A stretch of 31,533 bases of DNA from a virus, in the IMG/VR virus record IMGVR_UViG_3300020034_000054, positions 1 to 31,533 of that record. One strand, written 5' to 3'. Shown here in pieces: positions 9,904 through 20,264 of the stretch (positions are counted from its first letter, which is position 1; every line of letters begins with the position of its first letter). Under the pieces are notes generated by a model. That model made no database searches and was not told the origin of the DNA. It saw only the letters and a program-made list of their open reading frames with translations. The position numbers and the translations under genes were made by a program.

Positions 9904-10938
9904 GTGGTCGCCATCTACGCATTCGGCGGAGAAGATAGCGAACTCTACCAGATTGGCGGAGGGACTATCACCACTACCTCGACGCAGTTTCGCTCGCCAC
10001 AAGCGCGGTGTGCGTTACGGTGTTCAACTGGAGTCGCAAGCAATCCAGTCTATTGGTTGTACGTAAAACCGTTCTCCCAGGCTATTTTTTGGAACCACGC
10101 TAGGCTTGTGACTGGCGTTCTTTTTCCCGCAGTAGGAGGGGTTCCTTGGCGCGCGTTTTCCGCGGACGGTGTGCTGAGGCTTCGCATTCGCGCGACGGTA
10201 GGCGCCTCAGCGACCTATGTACTTGAAAAACTTACTACCGCAGGTGCAGCAACAACACTTATCACTTTCACAATGCCCACCTCCGGACTGCCCTCTGTAT
10301 TCGATCAGTTGGATGTATTCGTCAACTACGCCGTGAGTGGTCAGGTAGCCGTCTACTTCAACCGCATTCTCAAGGGGGACACGGGTGCTGGTGTAGATGT
10401 TACAACAGATGGCATAACAGCTATCGCGAATATTGGCTACGGCACTAACACGGACACAGGAGCATCAGCAACTGGCTGCAACTGGTCCGAGACCGTCGTC
10501 TCCGACACCGACACGCGCTCGTGGAACCTCCAGGTCTTCCCGCCCGTCGCCAACGGCAATACCCACAACTTCGACACGGGCACACCAGCCGCCGCGAACG
10601 TCAACGAGATCACTATCGACTACTCCACGCTGGACGGCTCGACCACGGCCAACCAGATTGATGAGTACACCACGGGAGCAGTGGTCTCGGGGACCTATGG
10701 CGTGGTGGCCTACTGCGTCAGCGCCGTGATGCAGAAGGGCGCGACGGGACCGAGCAAAGCGGACCTTGTTGTCCGAACGGGAGCCGCCGATTGGCTCTCC
10801 GCCGACCAAGTGTTGACCGCCTCTTGGGACACCTACCAGAACGCTTGGCTCACCAACCCGAACACCGGCGTCGCGTGGCTCCCGAGTGACATCGGCGCGG
10901 CCTCCGGCTTCAACATCGGGATGAAGAGCATCACCTGA
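9904..10938 (+). CDS. Tail/virion protein, probable lectin-like beta-sandwich
   Basis: A 344-residue protein starting at GTG 9904 behind GAGGTC. The N-terminal two-thirds (FRSPQARCALRCSTG, LRLRIRATVGASATYVLEKL, FDQLDVFVNYAVSGQVAVYF) has the strand order of a concanavalin/LamG-like sandwich as found in tail proteins. The C-terminal third (DTRSWNLQVFPPVANGNTHN, SGTYGVVAYCVSAVMQKGAT) is a second beta module common to phage surface proteins, ending GFNIGMKSIT. The first 550 bases are more A/T rich than the second half, hinting that the N-terminal module was exchanged. A role in binding the host or decorating the tail is inferred. Confidence 0.7.
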   Translation: MVAIYAFGGEDSELYQIGGGTITTTSTQFRSPQARCALRCSTGVASNPVYWLYVKPFSQAIFWNHARLVTGVLFPAVGGVPWRAFSADGVLRLRIRATVGASATYVLEKLTTAGAATTLITFTMPTSGLPSVFDQLDVFVNYAVSGQVAVYFNRILKGDTGAGVDVTTDGITAIANIGYGTNTDTGASATGCNWSETVVSDTDTRSWNLQVFPPVANGNTHNFDTGTPAAANVNEITIDYSTLDGSTTANQIDEYTTGAVVSGTYGVVAYCVSAVMQKGATGPSKADLVVRTGAADWLSADQVLTASWDTYQNAWLTNPNTGVAWLPSDIGAASGFNIGMKSIT

Positions 10939-12125
10939 TGGTCGTCACTTGGAACACTCTCGACAAGTCGGCCAACATCACGCTCAGTGGTGGGTCGCTG
11001 GTTGCGACGACCACCTCCGCGACGCAAGGAGCGTGCCGAGCAACCCTCAGCATCACCACCGCCAAAACCTACGTCGAGTTCCAGATCAGCAACATTACCG
11101 GCTCGCTCTGGTCGGTGGGTTTCGCTAATGCGCTCGCGGGGCTGGGGACTGCGCCGGGCTCCGATACCAATTCAGCCGTCTTCCAGCCCAATCAGGTCGG
11201 CCGAGCATTCTTCAACAACGCCAGCCTAGGAGCCGACTACGCGGGCGTGGCTTCGCAGACCGTGTGCTGCGCCTTCGATCCGGTCGCCAAGCTGATCTGG
11301 TTCCGCTACGGCTTCGGCTATTGGAACGGGAGTTCGACGGCAGACCCTGCGACAGGGGTTGGAGGCCGCTCGGTCGCTGCGATAGCCGCCGGACCATACT
11401 TCCCGGTCTTCGGTGACAACGGTTCCGGCGGCGCGGTCACCGCCCGCTTCGGCGCGACGGATATGTGGTTCCCGATCCCTACTGGGTTCGCCGCGCCAGA
11501 CACCAATCTCCAGGCCTTCATGGCTACAGCCAAATTCAGCGGGTACGGGCTACTTGCCCCGCCGCTGAATGCCATCAGCGCGTCCAAAGTCAGCGGATAC
11601 GGCCTGTTGGCCCCGCCTCAGAATGCGGTCTCCGTCGCTAAGCTCCTCGGTTACGTGATCACCCAGGATATCCCGTTCGGGCGGAACGCCGAGAAGTGGG
11701 ATGTTCCGCGCGGGGTCAAGAAGGTCGTCTATCAGGACGGCACGGTTGCCAGCCCGCAAATGCTGCTGGCCTCGCCGCCGCCAGTGGTCTCGCGGCCCTT
11801 TAAACCAATTGAGTGGAACACTCCATACCCCATTGCGCGCAGAGACATCAGCTTCGCGGGAACTCTCCTGCCGCAGCAAGTGGCTACAAACGTCCCGTTC
11901 TTTGGGCGCGTGGATGAATTACCTCAACGTCCTCGTGGCCGCCTACTTGAAGCGTACTCTGGCTTCAACCCTGCGAACTTCCCCATAGTCGCCACCCCCT
12001 TCTTTGGACTGGTCCTTGATCTTCCAGCGCGCCGTCCGCGCTTCACACCCGAACGTCAGTATAGTTCATCTCTTCGCCCGCAGAACACCCCCCAATTCGC
12101 TTACCTCCTTTTAGCGAGCATTTGA
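10938..12125 (+). CDS. Fibre-type tail protein with SPRY-like domain and 18-residue repeats
   Basis: A 395-residue protein, coupled to the previous gene by TGATG. Residues 1-190 resemble a SPRY/B30.2-like beta-sandwich (VTWNTLDKSANITLSGG, YVEFQISNITGSLWSVGFAN, CCAFDPVAKLIWFRYGFGYW). Two tandem 18-residue repeats plus a partial third follow (199-216, 217-234, then KLLGYV). The C-terminal 150 residues are polar and Pro/Arg-rich with recurring PFFG motifs (VPFFGRVDELP, TPFFGLVLDLP) and no obvious fold. Such a domain plus repeat arrangement suggests a surface-exposed attachment protein. It precedes the gp11-like adaptor gene. Confidence 0.7.
   Translation: MVVTWNTLDKSANITLSGGSLVATTTSATQGACRATLSITTAKTYVEFQISNITGSLWSVGFANALAGLGTAPGSDTNSAVFQPNQVGRAFFNNASLGADYAGVASQTVCCAFDPVAKLIWFRYGFGYWNGSSTADPATGVGGRSVAAIAAGPYFPVFGDNGSGGAVTARFGATDMWFPIPTGFAAPDTNLQAFMATAKFSGYGLLAPPLNAISASKVSGYGLLAPPQNAVSVAKLLGYVITQDIPFGRNAEKWDVPRGVKKVVYQDGTVASPQMLLASPPPVVSRPFKPIEWNTPYPIARRDISFAGTLLPQQVATNVPFFGRVDELPQRPRGRLLEAYSGFNPANFPIVATPFFGLVLDLPARRPRFTPERQYSSSLRPQNTPQFAYLLLASI
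11532..11657 (+). repeat. 54-bp tandem repeat coding 18-residue units
   Basis: Units KFSGYGLLAPPLNAISAS (11532-11585) and KVSGYGLLAPPQNAVSVA (11586-11639) are followed by a partial third unit beginning KLLGYV (11640-11657). The nucleotides have diverged at third positions more than the amino acids, which suggests the protein sequence is under selection. Confidence 0.75.
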
Positions 12126-12126
12126 C

Positions 12127-12888
12127 ATGACAACCGATGTAGACATCGCCAACCGCGCGCTGAGTGAAATCGGCGCTCGCGCGACCATCACGGCGATTGA
12201 CAACATCACGCCCGCAGGGATGCAGGTAGGGATTTGGATTGACACCATCCGCTTGCAGTTGCTGAGGATGGCTCCGTGGGGGTTCGCCCGGCGGACGCTA
12301 GCACTTACGCTGTTGGGCGAGCTGACCGATAACCCCCCCGCCTCACCCTACCCGTGGCAGTTCAAGTACGAGTACCCGGCGGATTGCATCCGCGTGAACT
12401 ATATCCTCCCCCGTCCGCCGATGAGCACCACCAACACGCCCGTAGTCGGCGTGCCGCTAGTGCCTTACGCAATGCCCTCCCGCAACTGTCGCTACTTGGT
12501 GGCGAACGACCTCGGTGAGATGGACGCGCAAATCAAGGTGCTGTTATCCAACGTTCGGGATGCGGTGGGGGTGTATGTGGCCGATGTCACCGACCCGGAT
12601 TTGATGGACCAAGGGTTCCTTGAGGCGTGGGTGGCGGCGCTGGCGTCCAAACTCGTCCAGCCCCTCACTGGCAACGCCGGGATGAAAGAGGGCTACGAAC
12701 GCCTCGCCCAAATGCACATCAACCAAGCGCGAGTGAGTGACGCTAATGAGGCCGTACCGAGCGCTGACGCTACCCCCGATTGGATCGCCACGCGGGGTGT
12801 ACCCTCTTACAACGCTGGACTCGCGGGCGCGCAGTTCATGGGCGGGAGTTGGTTCACCGGGTACGACACCGGCAATTGGGGCATGTGA
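12127..12888 (+). CDS. Tail tubular protein A-like adaptor (T7 gp11-like)
   Basis: A 253-residue head-to-tail adaptor that would sit between portal and nozzle. The opening IANRALSEIGARATITAID and the early helix WIDTIRLQLLRMAPWGFARR are hallmarks of the gp11/tail tubular A family. Later segments include PYPWQFKYEYPADCIRVNYI and EAWVAALASKLVQPLTGNA, also typical. The C-terminal tail is Gly-rich and aromatic (GGSWFTGYDTGNWGM). It is directly followed, three bases later, by the nozzle gene, the usual T7-like pairing. Confidence 0.85.
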   Translation: MTTDVDIANRALSEIGARATITAIDNITPAGMQVGIWIDTIRLQLLRMAPWGFARRTLALTLLGELTDNPPASPYPWQFKYEYPADCIRVNYILPRPPMSTTNTPVVGVPLVPYAMPSRNCRYLVANDLGEMDAQIKVLLSNVRDAVGVYVADVTDPDLMDQGFLEAWVAALASKLVQPLTGNAGMKEGYERLAQMHINQARVSDANEAVPSADATPDWIATRGVPSYNAGLAGAQFMGGSWFTGYDTGNWGM

Positions 12889-12891
12889 CTG

Positions 12892-15800
12892 ATGGCCACT
12901 GCCTCGATCCAAACAGCCTTCACGGCGGGGGAAATCTCCCCCCAACTCTACTCCCGCGTGGACCTTGAGAAGTTCCAAATCGGGGCGGCGCTCATCCGTA
13001 ATTTCTTCGTGGACTATCGCGGCGGCGTCACCAATCGCCCGGGGACAAAATACATCGACACGGTGTTGGAGGACTCCCGCCTCATCCCGTTCGTGGTGAG
13101 CACCTCGGCGTCCTACGTACTCGTGTTCAGTAATGAACTCATTACAATTTACACGGCGGGGGTGTTCGTCACCACCGTTGCCTCGCCGTATCTGGCCACC
13201 GACCTTCAGCGTCTCAACTACACCCAAAGCGCGGATGTGTTGACATTAGTTCATCCGAGCTATCCGCCCGCGAACCTCTCCCGCACCTCCGATACCACGT
13301 TCAGCTACGATGTTCTAACCACTGCGCCGACCATCAATCCGCCCGTTATCACCACATTTGTCGCGCCGCACTCCGGCCCGTACAACTTCGGCTACCTCGT
13401 CACTGCCGTTGACCTCGATGGGAAGGAGGAGTCCCTCCCCTCGAACCCTGGCGTCAAGCACTCTGAGGCGATGAACGAGACCACGAACCGGGTCATCGGC
13501 CTCTCGTGGACCGCGCCCGCCGAACCAGTGAGCAAGTACAACATCTACAAATGGGGGCCGATTGACGCAGTGACGCTGAACCCGGCGACGGTATGGGGGT
13601 TCATCGGCTCCTCTCAAACCACCACCTTCACCGACAACAACATCGCGCCGGACTTCAGCAAGCAGCCCCCCGGCTGGGGCGACCCATTCAGCGGCGGCCA
13701 GTTCCAATCCATCACGGTCGCGACGGGTGGGAGTGGGTATGATGGAGTGGGCGGGGATTGGCCGAACATCCCTTACGTCCCGCTCACCATAACCGGCGAC
13801 GGCACTGACGCTGCGGGCTACGCTGTAATCGACCACGCCACAGGCGCGATCATCGGCGTGTTCCTCACTAACTCCGGCAAGAACTACACCGCCGCGACGG
13901 TGACGGCGAACGGGGAAGGGGGGACCGGCGCGACGTTCAACTTCACCTTCAGCGACACTGAGCCGTTAAACCCCGCTTGCACTGCGTACCTCCAACAGCG
14001 CCGGTGGTTCGCGGGGGCGGACTTGAAGCCCGAAACCCTCGTAGCCTCAAACGTCGGGCTGTACAACAACTTCAACACCACCCCGGTGAGCCTCGCCACC
14101 GATGCGTTAGTGATCTCCCTCGCGAGCGAGCAAGTGAACACCATTCGCGCGATGGTGCCTGTGTCGTACGGCATGCTGATCTTCACCACCGGCGGATCGT
14201 TTCTCCTTAACGGCGGATCGCCCTATGCGCCCATCACCCCCGCGACAATCAGCGTCCAGGCGCAGGCGAGTGAGGGTGCAAACTTCCTCCGCCCCCTCGC
14301 CATCAACTATGACATCCTGTACGGCCAGGCCAAGGGCAACCGCATCCGCAATCTCGCGTTCGCGTGGCAGCGCCAGTCCTATACCGGCGGGGATGTGACG
14401 CAGCTCGCCCCCCACCTGTTCGATAACTTCCACACGACCGAGTGGGCGTGGGCGGAGGAACCGTTCAAGATCGTGTGGGCGGTGCGGGATGATGGGACGA
14501 TGTTATCCCTGACGTATGTCCCCGATCAGGAGGTCAACGCTTGGGCGCGCCATGACACTCAGGGCCTGTTCAAGTCCGTGTGCTCCGTGCCGGAGGGCGA
14601 CACTGATGCGGTGTATGTGATTGTCAAACGCCACATCCCGAATGAGGACGGCGAGCCGTGTTGGGTGTGGATGCTGGAACGCTTCGCCGAGCGCCAATCA
14701 TGCTGTATCTACGACTCGTGGTTCCTGGATTCCGCGCTCAGCCTGCCGAAAAACTTTCCTGCCGCGTCATTATACGTTGTTGGTGGGACAACGATTGGCG
14801 ATACCGTAGACTTGTACTCCTATGATCCTTGTGGAACGCCTGGGGGAAATTTTGGAATTTCCAGTTTCGTCATGGAGGCGAGGGAAAACTACACCTCCGC
14901 CCTCGCTACGCGCTTCACGGCCGCCGACTTCCCGCAGATCGCCGCCGCGGATGGGGCGACCATGGGCCTCTCCTATGACCACGTACGCCGCAAGATCATG
15001 TACATAGGCCTCCTCAGCGAGACGGCCCGGCCCATCATCAACACGACGGGCTTCACCATCTGGAACGGTCTGCGAAGCATCGCGCCGGGGGACACCATCA
15101 CCGATAGTGGCGACAACACGCCCCTTGTGACCTTCACCTGCGAGAAGGACATCGATACTGGCGCCGTCGTCTTCTACCCTAACTACGACGCGGCGAATCT
15201 GGTCCCGGCAGGGATCGGTGGCGGCGACGGGACATGGCGGCGGTTCACTGACGACTTCTTCTTTTCCGGCGGAAACATGCCGAACGGCGTCAATCCGCGA
15301 ACCGGAGACTTCTGGGTGAGCGCCGGCAGTTGCGAGCTTTATCTTTTCAGGTTCGCGGACAACTTCTCGCTCATCATCTCGCCGATGCGTCCGCAGCTCG
15401 GCAACGTCAACAACCTCGTTCAGCTTGTCGGGATTACCGGAACCTGGGTCTACGCCCAAGAGCAGAACCTTCTCAGCGCGCCCAGCAGTTTCGATCAGTT
15501 CTACCTCACCCCAACCAATATAACCGCCGCCGAAACGGCCGCTGATGAATTGCTGATCTACGCCAAATATGACTATCCGGTGCGCTCCAATCCGACGCTG
15601 CCGTTAAATCCGGCGAGCTATTACCGTAAAGCCGTGGCCAGTGACGGTTCGGTATACGTCTTCTCAATGTTCCAGACCGACACGAGGGATTATCGGCTCT
15701 ATAAATTCACCCCGCCATCATCCTTCGTATATCCGACACCTCCGATAGATGGAGGGTTTTCGGATATTACGCCGTGGGCGTCGGGAACTGGCCCAAATAC

Positions 15801-17214
15801 CGGCGCGGCGGATTTCACAGAAGACAATTACAACGAGTACTTTGGAACCTATAAAAACATTCTCTTCCACCTTCCCGCCATGGACGGGCTGGCTGCAATC
15901 GCCAAATTCATGCCCGAAGATAAGAGCGGCGGGACGCAGGCGGACTTCTCCATGTCGTGCACCTACGTCGATATAGGTGGCGGGACCTTCGATCATCACG
16001 AGGCCTTCGTCGGCGGCTACATGACCGCGGCATGGGCGGTCACCGACGATCCGAGCCTCGCGGCGTTCGCCCCGACTGACTGTCGCGAGGTGAACCCGTA
16101 TCTGGACATCAACGACTTCCCGTTCGATGGCGTCGACTACAGCATCCGCTGGCTATTCTTCATTGTTGGCCGGGTGGCTGATGGTGCTGTGGTCGGAGAC
16201 CCGGCGACGGTGATCATCAAGTACCAGTTCACCTCCGGCGCGGCCCCGGCAGTGCTGCAGGTGATCGCTGAGGACGGTTGGGATGCGGCCTACGCAACCT
16301 ATGCTGCAGCGATATCGGACGACAACGTCATCGAAGCTTCCATGCAGTTGCCGGTCTCTGGCGACGAGTTCGAGCAATTCAGCAATATCCAGGACAGCGG
16401 TATTTACGACTCCGGAGGCAATGCCTTCTGGTGGTCCGGCTCCAACCCCAACATGTACCAGCTCGATGCCGCATTCACGAACAGGGCGGCCACCGGCACG
16501 GAGCAGCAACCGTTCCCGCCCTTTTTACGACTAGGTTTCCAGACTCCAATCGTAGAAAATGATTGCGTTCATGTAGGCTGTGGGGAAATTACAGTTACAG
16601 AAGTTGTGAATTCCCAGCATTTGATTGGAGAGATTACGGCCTCGGTGGCGGAATTGTTAGTGCCCGATGACCCCGACGGGGCGTATGAACCTATCGCGGC
16701 TGGGGATTGGTTTCTCAGCACGCCCACTGACACAATCACCCTCGCGCACTTGAAGGGTAAGGAGGTGTGGGCGTTGGCGGACGGGCATGTGGTGGGGCCG
16801 CTGGTGGCGAATGCGAGCACGGGGATTGTGACGCTGCCCTTTGCGGCTTGTACTGTCGTGGCAGGGCTGAAGTACACCCAACAGGTTAAGACCCTATACC
16901 TTACCATGGAGGGGCTAAACCAGGGGACTGAGCAGGGTAAGCGCAAGCAGATCAGCGGCATCACTACGCGGGTGGATTGCACCCTCGGGCCGGTTATCGG
17001 CTCGGACTTCGAACTCATGTATTCCCCACCCGAGTTCGCCACCACGGTCAACGATCCCGCGTCCAACACAGTGTTGGCGACTGGCGACGTGCGGGCGCTG
17101 AACTTCCCCCAATGGGACACGAAGGGCGAGGTGTGTGTGGAGCAAACGCTTCCCCTCCCCGCGAGCATCCTTGGCATTATTGTGGAGGTCACCCCAGGTG
17201 ATACCGGACGCTAG
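12892..17214 (+). CDS. Tail nozzle protein (T7 gp12 / tail tubular B-like) with large insertion
   Basis: A 1440-residue nozzle-type protein; relatives are usually about 600-900 residues. Nozzle features frame the protein: MATASIQTAFTAGEISPQLY, LIRNFFVDYRGGVTNRPGT and SADVLTLVHPSYPP at the N-terminus. A GGSGYDGVGGDWP beta module lies near residue 280, FAERQ near 597, and LKGKEVWALADGHVVGPLV plus QGKRKQISGITTRV near the C-terminus. Between about residue 620 and 1205 lies a block foreign to the family. It carries repeating motifs such as GDFWVSAGSCELYLFRFAD and GSVYVFSMFQTDTRDYRLYK that resemble propeller blades. Flanks resume the nozzle pattern (ENDCVHVGCGEITVTEV). The insertion is in frame and the gene looks functional. 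Its extra domain may bind the host surface. Confidence 0.87.
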   Translation: MATASIQTAFTAGEISPQLYSRVDLEKFQIGAALIRNFFVDYRGGVTNRPGTKYIDTVLEDSRLIPFVVSTSASYVLVFSNELITIYTAGVFVTTVASPYLATDLQRLNYTQSADVLTLVHPSYPPANLSRTSDTTFSYDVLTTAPTINPPVITTFVAPHSGPYNFGYLVTAVDLDGKEESLPSNPGVKHSEAMNETTNRVIGLSWTAPAEPVSKYNIYKWGPIDAVTLNPATVWGFIGSSQTTTFTDNNIAPDFSKQPPGWGDPFSGGQFQSITVATGGSGYDGVGGDWPNIPYVPLTITGDGTDAAGYAVIDHATGAIIGVFLTNSGKNYTAATVTANGEGGTGATFNFTFSDTEPLNPACTAYLQQRRWFAGADLKPETLVASNVGLYNNFNTTPVSLATDALVISLASEQVNTIRAMVPVSYGMLIFTTGGSFLLNGGSPYAPITPATISVQAQASEGANFLRPLAINYDILYGQAKGNRIRNLAFAWQRQSYTGGDVTQLAPHLFDNFHTTEWAWAEEPFKIVWAVRDDGTMLSLTYVPDQEVNAWARHDTQGLFKSVCSVPEGDTDAVYVIVKRHIPNEDGEPCWVWMLERFAERQSCCIYDSWFLDSALSLPKNFPAASLYVVGGTTIGDTVDLYSYDPCGTPGGNFGISSFVMEARENYTSALATRFTAADFPQIAAADGATMGLSYDHVRRKIMYIGLLSETARPIINTTGFTIWNGLRSIAPGDTITDSGDNTPLVTFTCEKDIDTGAVVFYPNYDAANLVPAGIGGGDGTWRRFTDDFFFSGGNMPNGVNPRTGDFWVSAGSCELYLFRFADNFSLIISPMRPQLGNVNNLVQLVGITGTWVYAQEQNLLSAPSSFDQFYLTPTNITAAETAADELLIYAKYDYPVRSNPTLPLNPASYYRKAVASDGSVYVFSMFQTDTRDYRLYKFTPPSSFVYPTPPIDGGFSDITPWASGTGPNTGAADFTEDNYNEYFGTYKNILFHLPAMDGLAAIAKFMPEDKSGGTQADFSMSCTYVDIGGGTFDHHEAFVGGYMTAAWAVTDDPSLAAFAPTDCREVNPYLDINDFPFDGVDYSIRWLFFIVGRVADGAVVGDPATVIIKYQFTSGAAPAVLQVIAEDGWDAAYATYAAAISDDNVIEASMQLPVSGDEFEQFSNIQDSGIYDSGGNAFWWSGSNPNMYQLDAAFTNRAATGTEQQPFPPFLRLGFQTPIVENDCVHVGCGEITVTEVVNSQHLIGEITASVAELLVPDDPDGAYEPIAAGDWFLSTPTDTITLAHLKGKEVWALADGHVVGPLVANASTGIVTLPFAACTVVAGLKYTQQVKTLYLTMEGLNQGTEQGKRKQISGITTRVDCTLGPVIGSDFELMYSPPEFATTVNDPASNTVLATGDVRALNFPQWDTKGEVCVEQTLPLPASILGIIVEVTPGDTGR

Positions 17215-17626
17215 GCGCATTACACTCGACACCATCCCCCCGTTCACGCTGCGGAGCGCGGACGTGGAGGAGTGTGCTGCGGGGGGCCTCACCCCCCAGC
17301 AAGCCGTTCGCTGCTCCGTGGCGTTCGCGGATCGGGCGTATGCGGAGTGGTTCGGCGATGAGCTGTTGTGCCTCTGGGGCTACCGGGCGGAGGGGCCGAC
17401 CGCGAATATGTGGATGCTGAGCACGCCGAATGTGGACCTCCATCCGCGATTGTTCGCCCGCGAGACCCGTGCGATACTCGGCATGATGCTGCGGGAGTTC
17501 GCCCGCGTGCGCTGCACGGTCCACAACGGCCATACGCAGGCCGTGCGGTGGTTGGAATGGCTGGGGTTCACCCCCGCCTCGGCGCTTAATGAGAACTTCA
17601 CCCTTATGCAAGTGGGACAAATTTGA
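17198..17626 (+). CDS. GNAT-fold protein, T7 gp13 / DUF2833-like
   Basis: A 142-residue protein. GTG 17198 follows GGAGG (17184-17188) at nine bases, and it overlaps the nozzle gene by 17 bases; the longer upstream frame is a nozzle shadow. The fold is that of a GNAT acyltransferase: YAEWFGDELLCLWGYRAEG for the central strands, then an FARVRCTVHNGHTQAVRWLE segment and WLGFTPA, the typical N-terminal-helix/AVRxLExLGF ending. T7 gp13 and its relatives share this fold and are found before gp14-like genes, as here. Whether it acetylates anything is unknown; gp13-type proteins are linked to virion assembly. Confidence 0.8.
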   Translation: MIPDARRITLDTIPPFTLRSADVEECAAGGLTPQQAVRCSVAFADRAYAEWFGDELLCLWGYRAEGPTANMWMLSTPNVDLHPRLFARETRAILGMMLREFARVRCTVHNGHTQAVRWLEWLGFTPASALNENFTLMQVGQI

Positions 17627-18180
17627 TGGGCTTTTTGGCGAATGTTGGCGCGCAGATTGGGGAGGCGTTTGCGCCTGCGGCTACTGCGGGTGGGACTGCG
17701 GGGGCGTCACTCGGTTGGGGGACGCTGGCTACCGGGGCGAATATCGGCGCGAACCTCGCTGAGGGCATCGGTTCCGCCCAGCGGTACGACTACGCCGCGA
17801 AAGTGAGTGGGCAGAACGCGCAAGCCGCGCTACTCGCAGGACAGCAGGCCGAGTCCGCGAGTAAGATGAAGTACGGCGCATTGGAAGCTGAGCAAAAGGC
17901 GACGCAGGCGGCGAATGGTATCCAGGTCACGAGTGGGAGCGCCGAGGCCGTGCGCCACTCGACGGAGGAAATCTCCGCCATGGACGCCGCGCTCATTCAC
18001 TACAACGCGGCGCGGCAAGCTTTCGGGGAGGAGACGCAGGCGAGTTTGTACAAGACCGCTGCGAAGGGTTCGCTCATCAAAGGCGCGCTGAACGCGGGCG
18101 TGTCGTTCCTGAGCGGCGTGGAGTCCCTCAGTGACAAAGCCCTCGCCTACCGCCGCTCTGGCGCGATGGGAGGTGCGTGA
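17626..18180 (+). CDS. Internal virion protein, gp14-like
   Basis: A 184-residue Ala-rich helical protein (GFLANVGAQIGEAFAPAATA). Its core runs QRYDYAAKVSGQNAQAALLA, AESASKMKYGALEAEQKATQ and SGSAEAVRHSTEEISAMDA, matching the style of gp14-type internal proteins that are ejected and form a membrane channel at infection. ATG 17626 overlaps the previous stop (TGATG); a TTG three bases earlier is unlikely. The N-terminal 50 residues are hydrophobic and could insert in the outer membrane. Position between the gp13-like and gp15/16-like genes supports the call. Confidence 0.75.
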   Translation: MGFLANVGAQIGEAFAPAATAGGTAGASLGWGTLATGANIGANLAEGIGSAQRYDYAAKVSGQNAQAALLAGQQAESASKMKYGALEAEQKATQAANGIQVTSGSAEAVRHSTEEISAMDAALIHYNAARQAFGEETQASLYKTAAKGSLIKGALNAGVSFLSGVESLSDKALAYRRSGAMGGA

Positions 18181-20264
18181 TGCCCGTTGTCCCGACCGTT
18201 GACGCGCCGACGCAGAGCCTGAGTGGAGGGCCGCTGAACATCACTCCGCCGCCCGAGGCGTTTGGGGCGAATGTTGCCGCTGACGCACTCGGGAAGCTTG
18301 GCGGCGTCGCTGAGCACACCTCCGATATGCTGGCCCAACACGCCGAGCAGTTCCAGGCCATCAACAACAAGGCCGAGTCCGATAAAGGCTTCACAACCTT
18401 CATCCCCGCAAGTGCCGCGCTGTGGGAAGACTACAAATCCCACAACCAAGGGGACCTTGCGGCGGCGAACCTCCCTGAGTTCTTCAGCAAACTGGACACC
18501 CTGCGTGGGGACATCGGCGGGCAGATGTCCAACCCGATGGCGAAGGCGATGTATGACGCCCAAAGCCGTCAGGAGTTCCGCTCACTCACCAACCAAGGCG
18601 CGACCTACGCAGCGGCCCAGACGCAGAAGTTCGCCATTGACCAACATGTCGCGGTGCAGAAGTCTTACATTGACCTGATCGCGAATGATCCGACTTCCTA
18701 TGGTCGGAATAAAGACGCGTTGGTGTTGAACCAGGCCCTGTGGGACCACACGCACGGAGTTAGCGAGGATGTCGGGCACAGGAATGTGCAGGACATCCTT
18801 GGCAAAGCGGTGGGGGATGTGACGGGCATCTTGGCCAATCAGGGTAAGCCCGAGGAGGCTGCAGCATTCTTCGCTTCGCACCGGGGGGACATGGGCGGGG
18901 ACGCGCAGCGGCAAGTGGAAGCCGCGCTCCGCCCCTTGATGCAGGCAAACACCATCCGTACGGTGGCCGATGAAGCGGTGCAGCGCGCGGCGGGCGACGC
19001 GTCCGTTGGCGGGCCCCGCAATCTCCGCAACAACAACCCCGGGAACATTGAGGACGGAGCGTTTGCGAAGTCGCAGCCGGGGTACACAGGCTCCGATGGT
19101 CGCTTCGCGCAGTTCTCCTCCCCCGACGCCGGGGCCGTCGCGCAAACCACGCTGTTGAAGTCCTACGTCAACCGGGGGTTCAACACGATTGACAAGATCG
19201 TGGGGCGGTGGGCTCCGTCGAGTGACAACAATGACACGAACGCGTATGCGGCGACTGTGGCAAAGGCGACTGGGTTGGCGCGGGACGCGGTCATCGCCCC
19301 CAACGACACAGCTGCACTCGGCGCGGTGCGGGCCGCGATGGAGCATGTGGAGGGGCACGGGTCGACCGGCGCAACTGCCCCGGCCCTCGCGCGAACGGAT
19401 AACATCGAGCGTAACGCGGCGCAGACCTACGCGGACATTGCGAACGACCCGCGCCTCCACGGCGACCCCGACCTCATCCACAAAGCCCAGTCCGCCTTCA
19501 TTGCCAACGTGAACCAAACCCGCGCAGTGACGAACCTTGGCGAGAGTGCGGCGAAGGAGAACCTCGTGGCGCTGGCGCAGGCGAACGGGGCGCGGAGTGT
19601 TGAGGACTTGGTGAAGCTGCCTGGGGCGGCGGATGACCTTCGCCAACTCTCGCCGACCGCGCAACGCACTCTCAGCAACCAACTCACCGCTGCGGGAAAC
19701 CAGTGGGACCCGGCGAAGACTGCGCGGTACAATGAGCTTGTGGGGATGCGGGAGCTGAACCCGCAGGCGTTCTTGGCGACGAACATGGCGCATGAGGATT
19801 TGCCTCAGAGTGCCGTCCGGGGGCTGTCAACGGACCAGTCCAAAATCCTTAAGAAGCAGCAGACGCAAACGGCGACCTCCACTAACCTAAACCGTGCGTT
19901 AGGGAATGAGTTCGTGATGCAGGGCCTTGCCACGGCGGGGCTGAAAAAGGACACCCCCGACTACGATCACTTCACCGGCGCGCTGTACGCGGAATTGGAG
20001 AACTTCGCCGACAACCATCCTGGGAAGAAGCCTTCGGACCTTGAGCTTGGAACGATGGCGGCGGGAGTGTTGGCGAAGCGGAGTGTGCCTGCGGGGAACT
20101 ACTTCCTCGGGATGCGCGTGGGCGATACAACAATGGAGCGGCGAGGGTTTGACGTACCTGACGCGGCGCAGACCGAACTCACTGCGCAGTTCAGGCAACA
20201 CTACAACCGCGAGCCAACGGCGGCTGAGGTCGCGTACTTTTACCATAAGGCGGGCGCGAAGTGA
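18180..20264 (+). CDS. Internal virion protein with a muralytic-type domain
   Basis: A 694-residue protein behind GGGAGGT with ATG overlapping the previous stop. Residues 50-275 are helical (SDMLAQHAEQFQAINNKAES, MAKAMYDAQSRQEFRSLTNQ), as in gp15-type ejection proteins. Residues about 278-370 hold GPRNLRNNNPGNIED, GRFAQFSSPDAGAVAQTTLL and RWAPSSDNNDTNAYAATVAK. This is a domain found in virion-borne peptidoglycan hydrolases and structural proteins (RxxRxNNPGNI, then DGRFAxFxSPExG, then RWAPxxxND). The remainder is again helical, ending EVAYFYHKAGAK. It probably helps DNA cross the cell wall. The catalytic residue cannot be named with confidence. Confidence 0.8.
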   Translation: MPVVPTVDAPTQSLSGGPLNITPPPEAFGANVAADALGKLGGVAEHTSDMLAQHAEQFQAINNKAESDKGFTTFIPASAALWEDYKSHNQGDLAAANLPEFFSKLDTLRGDIGGQMSNPMAKAMYDAQSRQEFRSLTNQGATYAAAQTQKFAIDQHVAVQKSYIDLIANDPTSYGRNKDALVLNQALWDHTHGVSEDVGHRNVQDILGKAVGDVTGILANQGKPEEAAAFFASHRGDMGGDAQRQVEAALRPLMQANTIRTVADEAVQRAAGDASVGGPRNLRNNNPGNIEDGAFAKSQPGYTGSDGRFAQFSSPDAGAVAQTTLLKSYVNRGFNTIDKIVGRWAPSSDNNDTNAYAATVAKATGLARDAVIAPNDTAALGAVRAAMEHVEGHGSTGATAPALARTDNIERNAAQTYADIANDPRLHGDPDLIHKAQSAFIANVNQTRAVTNLGESAAKENLVALAQANGARSVEDLVKLPGAADDLRQLSPTAQRTLSNQLTAAGNQWDPAKTARYNELVGMRELNPQAFLATNMAHEDLPQSAVRGLSTDQSKILKKQQTQTATSTNLNRALGNEFVMQGLATAGLKKDTPDYDHFTGALYAELENFADNHPGKKPSDLELGTMAAGVLAKRSVPAGNYFLGMRVGDTTMERRGFDVPDAAQTELTAQFRQHYNREPTAAEVAYFYHKAGAK

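Follow-up and report, generated by a model that had tools for sequence, protein, structure and literature searches.

The tail nozzle gene of a podovirus carries, in frame, a portable domain of ca. 560 residues. Searches of Pfam, PHROGs, the PDB and 50,697 phage genomes gave no convincing match to this domain, which defines a protein family that would otherwise be annotated merely as 'tail protein'. The gene lies in a virus record of 31.5 kb, the whole of which is referred to as the window. At the level of sequence this block has discrete borders, several tail-protein carriers, a gene of its own and a history apart from that of its carrier, the one domain existing both free, as a protein by itself, and inserted in nozzles at two positions, while close relatives lack it. 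It is considered reasonably probable that the block acts as an autonomous module on the virion surface, with host binding as its likely function. An even prospect is given to the wider reading, in which an undescribed family of large, self-contained tail domains is exchanged as a host-range cassette by podoviruses of at least two architectures, either in frame within the nozzle, where more than one slot would serve, or as a tail gene of its own, with the nozzle serving as a swappable receptor-binding platform. Tail fibres and spikes are the usual basis for judging the host specificity of podoviruses, and a large module that enters and leaves the nozzle independently of it would, if this is true, be a neglected component of host recognition. 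In-frame exchange of modules in virion proteins is already known; a domain of ca. 560 residues without a convincing library match, moving between nozzle slots and stand-alone tail genes, appears to our knowledge to be new.

The open reading frame at 12892-17214 (+) encodes 1440 amino acids without an internal stop and is, by homology, a podovirus tail nozzle (PHROG 376 / T7 gp12-like). Residues 1-623 match PHROG 376, 'tail protein' (E 3e-147), the nozzle family profile recovers Carin1 8ck1, 'Tail Nozzle' (E 1.5e-194), and Pfam PF25675 is reached below threshold only (19.3 of 27 bits). By tblastn 191 phage records were matched, with homology resuming past the block, and none of the 191 covers 80% of the query. 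The neighbouring genes are of the BPP-1/epsilon15 type (terminase, head-tail connector, protease, major head protein, adaptor, nozzle, internal virion proteins and lysozyme), and the order adaptor, nozzle, internal virion proteins is the same in BPP-1, Carin1 and others. The features of the region, with the evidence for each, are as follows.

10938..12125, + strand: probable separate tail fibre gene (position comparison with G001 and G002)
12127..12888, + strand: tail adaptor of T7 gp11 type (PHROG 394, E 5e-37)
12892..17214, + strand: tail nozzle gene of T7 gp12 / Carin1 gp36 type, 1440 aa (PHROG 376, tblastn, family profile)
12892..14730, + strand: nozzle core, residues 1-613, comprising the N-terminal platform part, the beta-propeller and inserted modules, ending ...WFLD (alignments; T7 gp12 domain order, PMC6702177)
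13693..13956, + strand: second, smaller insert, a GSGY...NYTxATV...GGTGA module at residues about 268-355 (alignment; by eye)
14731..14856, + strand: upstream stub of the dock region, residues 614-655, common to L001, L002 and L109 (BLASTP)
14746..14868, + strand: AT-rich junction patch, GC3 down to 0.40 (GC3 scan)
14857..16539, + strand: portable domain of ca. 560 residues, residues 656-1216, ISSFVMEARENY...PPFLRLGF (ten-member block alignment A8; starts of L104, L105 and L108; profile matches)
16501..16647, + strand: AT-rich junction patch, GC3 down to 0.33 (GC3 scan)
16540..16740, + strand: downstream stub of the dock region, residues 1217-1283, VENDCVHVGCGEITVTEV... (homology with L002)
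16741..17211, + strand: C-terminal platform domain, residues 1284-1440, LAHLKGKEVWALADG...PGDTGR (tblastn, alignments)

The gene just 5' of the adaptor is mutually unrelated in the window and its close relatives G001 and G002, and two of the three proteins are assigned as tail fibres through PHROG. The tail fibre of the window is probably this separate gene (10938-12125), in which case the block would be an added element and not the sole one, and need not be an adhesin. In most relatives the adaptor is about 200-250 aa long, compared with 652 aa in L075 (541-2499) and 753 aa in L077 (228-2489), both annotated as tail tubular protein A; adaptors, too, may bear large inserts. In L111 a single frame of 1045 aa (15294-18431) matches both the portal protein and the terminase large subunit, and represents either a gene fusion or an assembly artefact.

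The slot that houses the block, corresponding to window residues 613-1284, varies in length among 35 aligned nozzles. It holds 17-29 residues in nozzles such as that of BPP-1, about 96-117 in most, including Carin1, 165 in L006, 331 in L002, 650 in L001 and 672 in the window. The large in-frame insertion of the original prediction is thereby confirmed, as about 560 extra residues, and alignment with shorter nozzles places the block in some relatives and not in others. The first of the two refuting conditions attached to that prediction, a block common to every nozzle of this length class among close relatives, was not borne out. When L002 is compared with the window by BLASTP, homology reaches residue 651 and picks up again at residue 1230; its N-terminal nozzle core is 66% identical to that of the window, and its slot is filled by an unrelated block of ca. 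250 residues. Stand-alone copies of the domain begin with MTTYVMEALEPYD, MNYLMEAKENYV or MTTYIMEAKENYD (M-T-TYVMEAKENYD or similar), and because they start there the window domain is placed at residues 656-1216 (14857-16539), close to the borders of 14764-16530 proposed earlier. The suspicion that a foreign domain had been captured likewise holds, since relatives variously have an empty slot, an unrelated block in it (L002), or this domain at another location or encoded by a separate gene. The profile of the canonical dock module, of ca. 100 residues, ends at residue 625 of the window nozzle and restarts at 1282, and since it breaks at these points the nesting of the insert in the module is argued from the L002 comparison and by eye.

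Comparison with T7 gp12 would put the slot of the window after the core beta-propeller and ahead of the C-terminal platform. The nozzle core is colinear with Carin1 gp36 (PDB 8ck1) and T7 gp12, where the slot is the propeller-platform stretch (PMC6702177), and the closest relative of the family with a solved structure is the nozzle of Carin1, a Cobetia phage, which has a slot of about 100 residues and lacks the 560-residue block. In T7 gp12 an outward-facing fibre dock is located between propeller and platform, the tip being formed from a loop of blade 3 (PMC6702177). By colinearity the slot would occupy the position of this outward fibre dock, the alignment of T7 gp12 with the nozzle itself being weak (hhalign probability 35%, E 4e-4), and display of the block at the tail tip, as first proposed, is probably wrong.

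The family was assembled stepwise, with the window block and L001 leading through a short sub-alignment to L098, and a profile of these three sequences to the rest. First scans with the window block alone gave no matches, the two-sequence profile found only L001, and the three-sequence profile found ten loci, two of them being the L001 and L098 records again. Matches to the block profile lie in nine virus records (E 1e-115 to 5e-250), and row L103 of alignment A8 is from the same contig as L098.

L001 and L109 hold the block in the nozzle, in the same slot as the window, and in the L109 nozzle (1637 aa) the block contains a further nested GSGY module. In L098, where the gene is cut by the contig end, the block comes directly after the last propeller strand, at or near the window slot. 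L100, L101, L106 and L107 form a second nozzle lineage, with a core 22-23% identical to that of the window, in which the block is found further downstream, within the platform by eye and with weak profile support. L104 (584 aa) and L105 (575 aa) are stand-alone block genes, the start codons of which overlap the stop of a preceding gene with tail-fibre-like or related PHROG matches. In L108 a protein of 1049 aa begins with the block and continues with an Ig-like segment that resembles decoration proteins (8zvi, E 0.001) and then, as judged by eye, a right-handed beta-helix-like stretch. The phages of L105 and L108 encode the portal phrog_156, the head protein phrog_283 and phrog_578, which we take to be a P22-type set with phrog_578 gp10-like; both copies reside in phages with P22-type heads. 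The source of L105 may be a prophage, and no copy of its protein was found on plasmids. In the L106 record (G010, 44922 bases) the nozzle gene and block span the record ends, which suggests a circularly permuted complete genome.

Relative to the window, block identity is 38% in L001, 38% in L109, 39% in L098 and 42% in L100; the corresponding values for the nozzle core are 93%, 46%, 37% and 22%. The block therefore stays flat, mostly at 30-45% (38-44% in nozzle carriers against the window), as the core falls from 93% to 22%, and because the one fails to follow the other the block was not inherited with its carrier. Judged from these alignments, it has its own history of exchange, apart from the nozzle that carries it. 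Between the window and L001, where block identity of 38-43% stands against 93% for the core, synonymous change (pS) is near saturation in the block and near 0.5 in the core; with the block near saturation, rapid protein change alone is insufficient and older divergence or exchange is required. In the comparison of the window with G001, matched packaging and assembly proteins are 79-95% identical, whereas the head-decoration-like protein, the fibre, the block, the lysozyme-type internal virion protein and the large ejection protein are diverged or replaced. Since the ejection proteins are as divergent as the block between these two closest phages, divergence alone does not mark the block out.

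According to the proposed role, podoviruses would exchange an autonomous virion domain of ca. 560 residues as a cassette. Lying within the part of the window nozzle that forms the fibre dock, the block would be present in six copies per virion on the flank of the tail, facing outward if the geometry of T7 applies, and would bind a variable host-surface structure, either a surface glycan or an envelope protein. Beside a separate tail fibre it may act as a second receptor-binding element, stabilising attachment before the nozzle opens, and exchange would occur since the block sets the host surface usable by the phage. This outward, host-binding reading is drawn from the position of the slot, the co-diverging proteins in the G001 comparison and published receptor binding by a nozzle. 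The nozzle of a Vibrio podophage has been shown to bind a host receptor, which provides the precedent, and no inserted domain is described in the portion of the source available (PMC7241545).

The sole library match of the block is phrog_13452, of unknown function (E 0.007). AlphaFold prediction of the block with its flanks, from a two-sequence alignment, reached a pLDDT of 27. The L002 nozzle was modelled at a pTM of 0.30 with its insert below pLDDT 50, and this low-confidence model has 8ck1 as its best PDB match (Foldseek E 5.9e-29, TM 0.17-0.22), T7 gp12 also being matched. Propeller blades had been suggested for the block on the basis of two repeating motifs, of which D-x-x-x-G-x-x-W/Y-V has no occurrence in the window block and LYxF is present, twice. 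A looser motif, chosen after the sequence had been viewed, occurs 5 times against 0.85 in shuffles, self-comparison for repeats is non-significant (best P 0.16), and searches of the PDB and Pfam returned no propeller or other fold relative by sequence. A propeller fold for the block is thus unproven. Derivation of the block as a duplicate of the nozzle's own propeller was considered and rejected, as it has no profile similarity to the nozzle core.

An envelope-degrading enzyme on the tail (glycan hydrolase, lyase or esterase), comparable to a tailspike depolymerase, is given a modest, minority chance. Such a function would suit a block that is portable among tail proteins and that is joined in L108 by the Ig-like and beta-helix-like parts, but no catalytic family was matched in Pfam, PHROGs or the PDB, and the residues invariant in A8, mainly Gly, Pro, Asp, Arg and aromatic, contain no catalytic set recognisable by eye. 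Ig-like decoration modules frequently move between virion proteins, and the coupling of the domain to such a segment in L108 would agree with a passive virion decoration, conferring spacing, stability or generic stickiness to particles or mucus-like glycans in place of specific recognition; this is improbable for a block that, at ca. 560 residues, far exceeds the usual decoration modules and has many conserved positions. An enlarged fibre dock, acting as structural adaptor for the phage's own tail fibre, is a slender prospect, as the block sits within the fibre-dock region, yet the window and G001 have it in common while their fibre-position proteins are unrelated, and the domain also occurs as a separate gene and at another nozzle location. 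Scarcely credible is the view that the block belongs to the standard nozzle fold, as an elaborate but ordinary element which shorter relatives have lost: the block is in frame and common to L001, L109 and probably L098, but in the nozzle-core tree short slots (17-18 residues in BPP-1 and others) and slots of ca. 100 residues are intermixed, L002 bears an unrelated block, block identity is decoupled from that of the core, and the separate-gene copies already contradict it.

The host-binding module preferred here can be set beside known systems. Receptor-binding modules of tailspikes and tail fibres exchange, combining a conserved assembly part with a variable outer part; in the window, by contrast, the module is carried by the nozzle, which gates the DNA, and the block matched none of the known adhesin or depolymerase families in Pfam, PHROG or the PDB. 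In SU10 a host-contact element is joined via a dock loop of the nozzle, but is a separate trimeric short tail fibre, unlike the inserted domain of the window (PMC9509320). The small nozzle modules of relatives (E1_FCCH, weak CBM5/12, GSGY) are likewise in-frame plug-ins at defined slots, of about 50-200 residues compared with ca. 560, and no sequence relation between them and the block was found.

The A/T-rich edges noted in the original prediction are borne out by the GC3 of 40-codon windows, which is 0.78 +/- 0.08 in the other virion genes, where 0.5% of such windows are at or below 0.5. The minima of the nozzle gene are the two block junctions, with 0.33 at residue 1209 and 0.40 at residue 619; the same scan revealed no dips at the block junctions of L001 or L109. 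Over residues 601-640 the window and L001 have 85% amino acid identity at a pS of 0.79, and in the 5' patch codons are altered while amino acids are largely kept. The patches may be a scar of recombination, at the junctions, with a relative of higher AT content, which would account for these edges, or may result from codon selection. An inverted repeat at 14581-14599 / 16487-16505 (89% over 19 nt) was treated as chance.

Smaller modules occupy other slots. In the nozzles of some relatives there are FCCH-like modules (E1_FCCH) and a CBM5/12 match that is weak and below threshold, both counted in favour of the host-binding reading of the block, and L059 has an insert of ca. 160 residues (about 830-995) in a loop near the propeller end, which resembles a carbohydrate-binding module and has no Pfam match. 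The GSGY...GGTGA module, of about 90 residues, is found in three slots, at 13693-13956 of the window, in the dock slot of L006 and within the L109 block, its likeness among the three being judged by eye.
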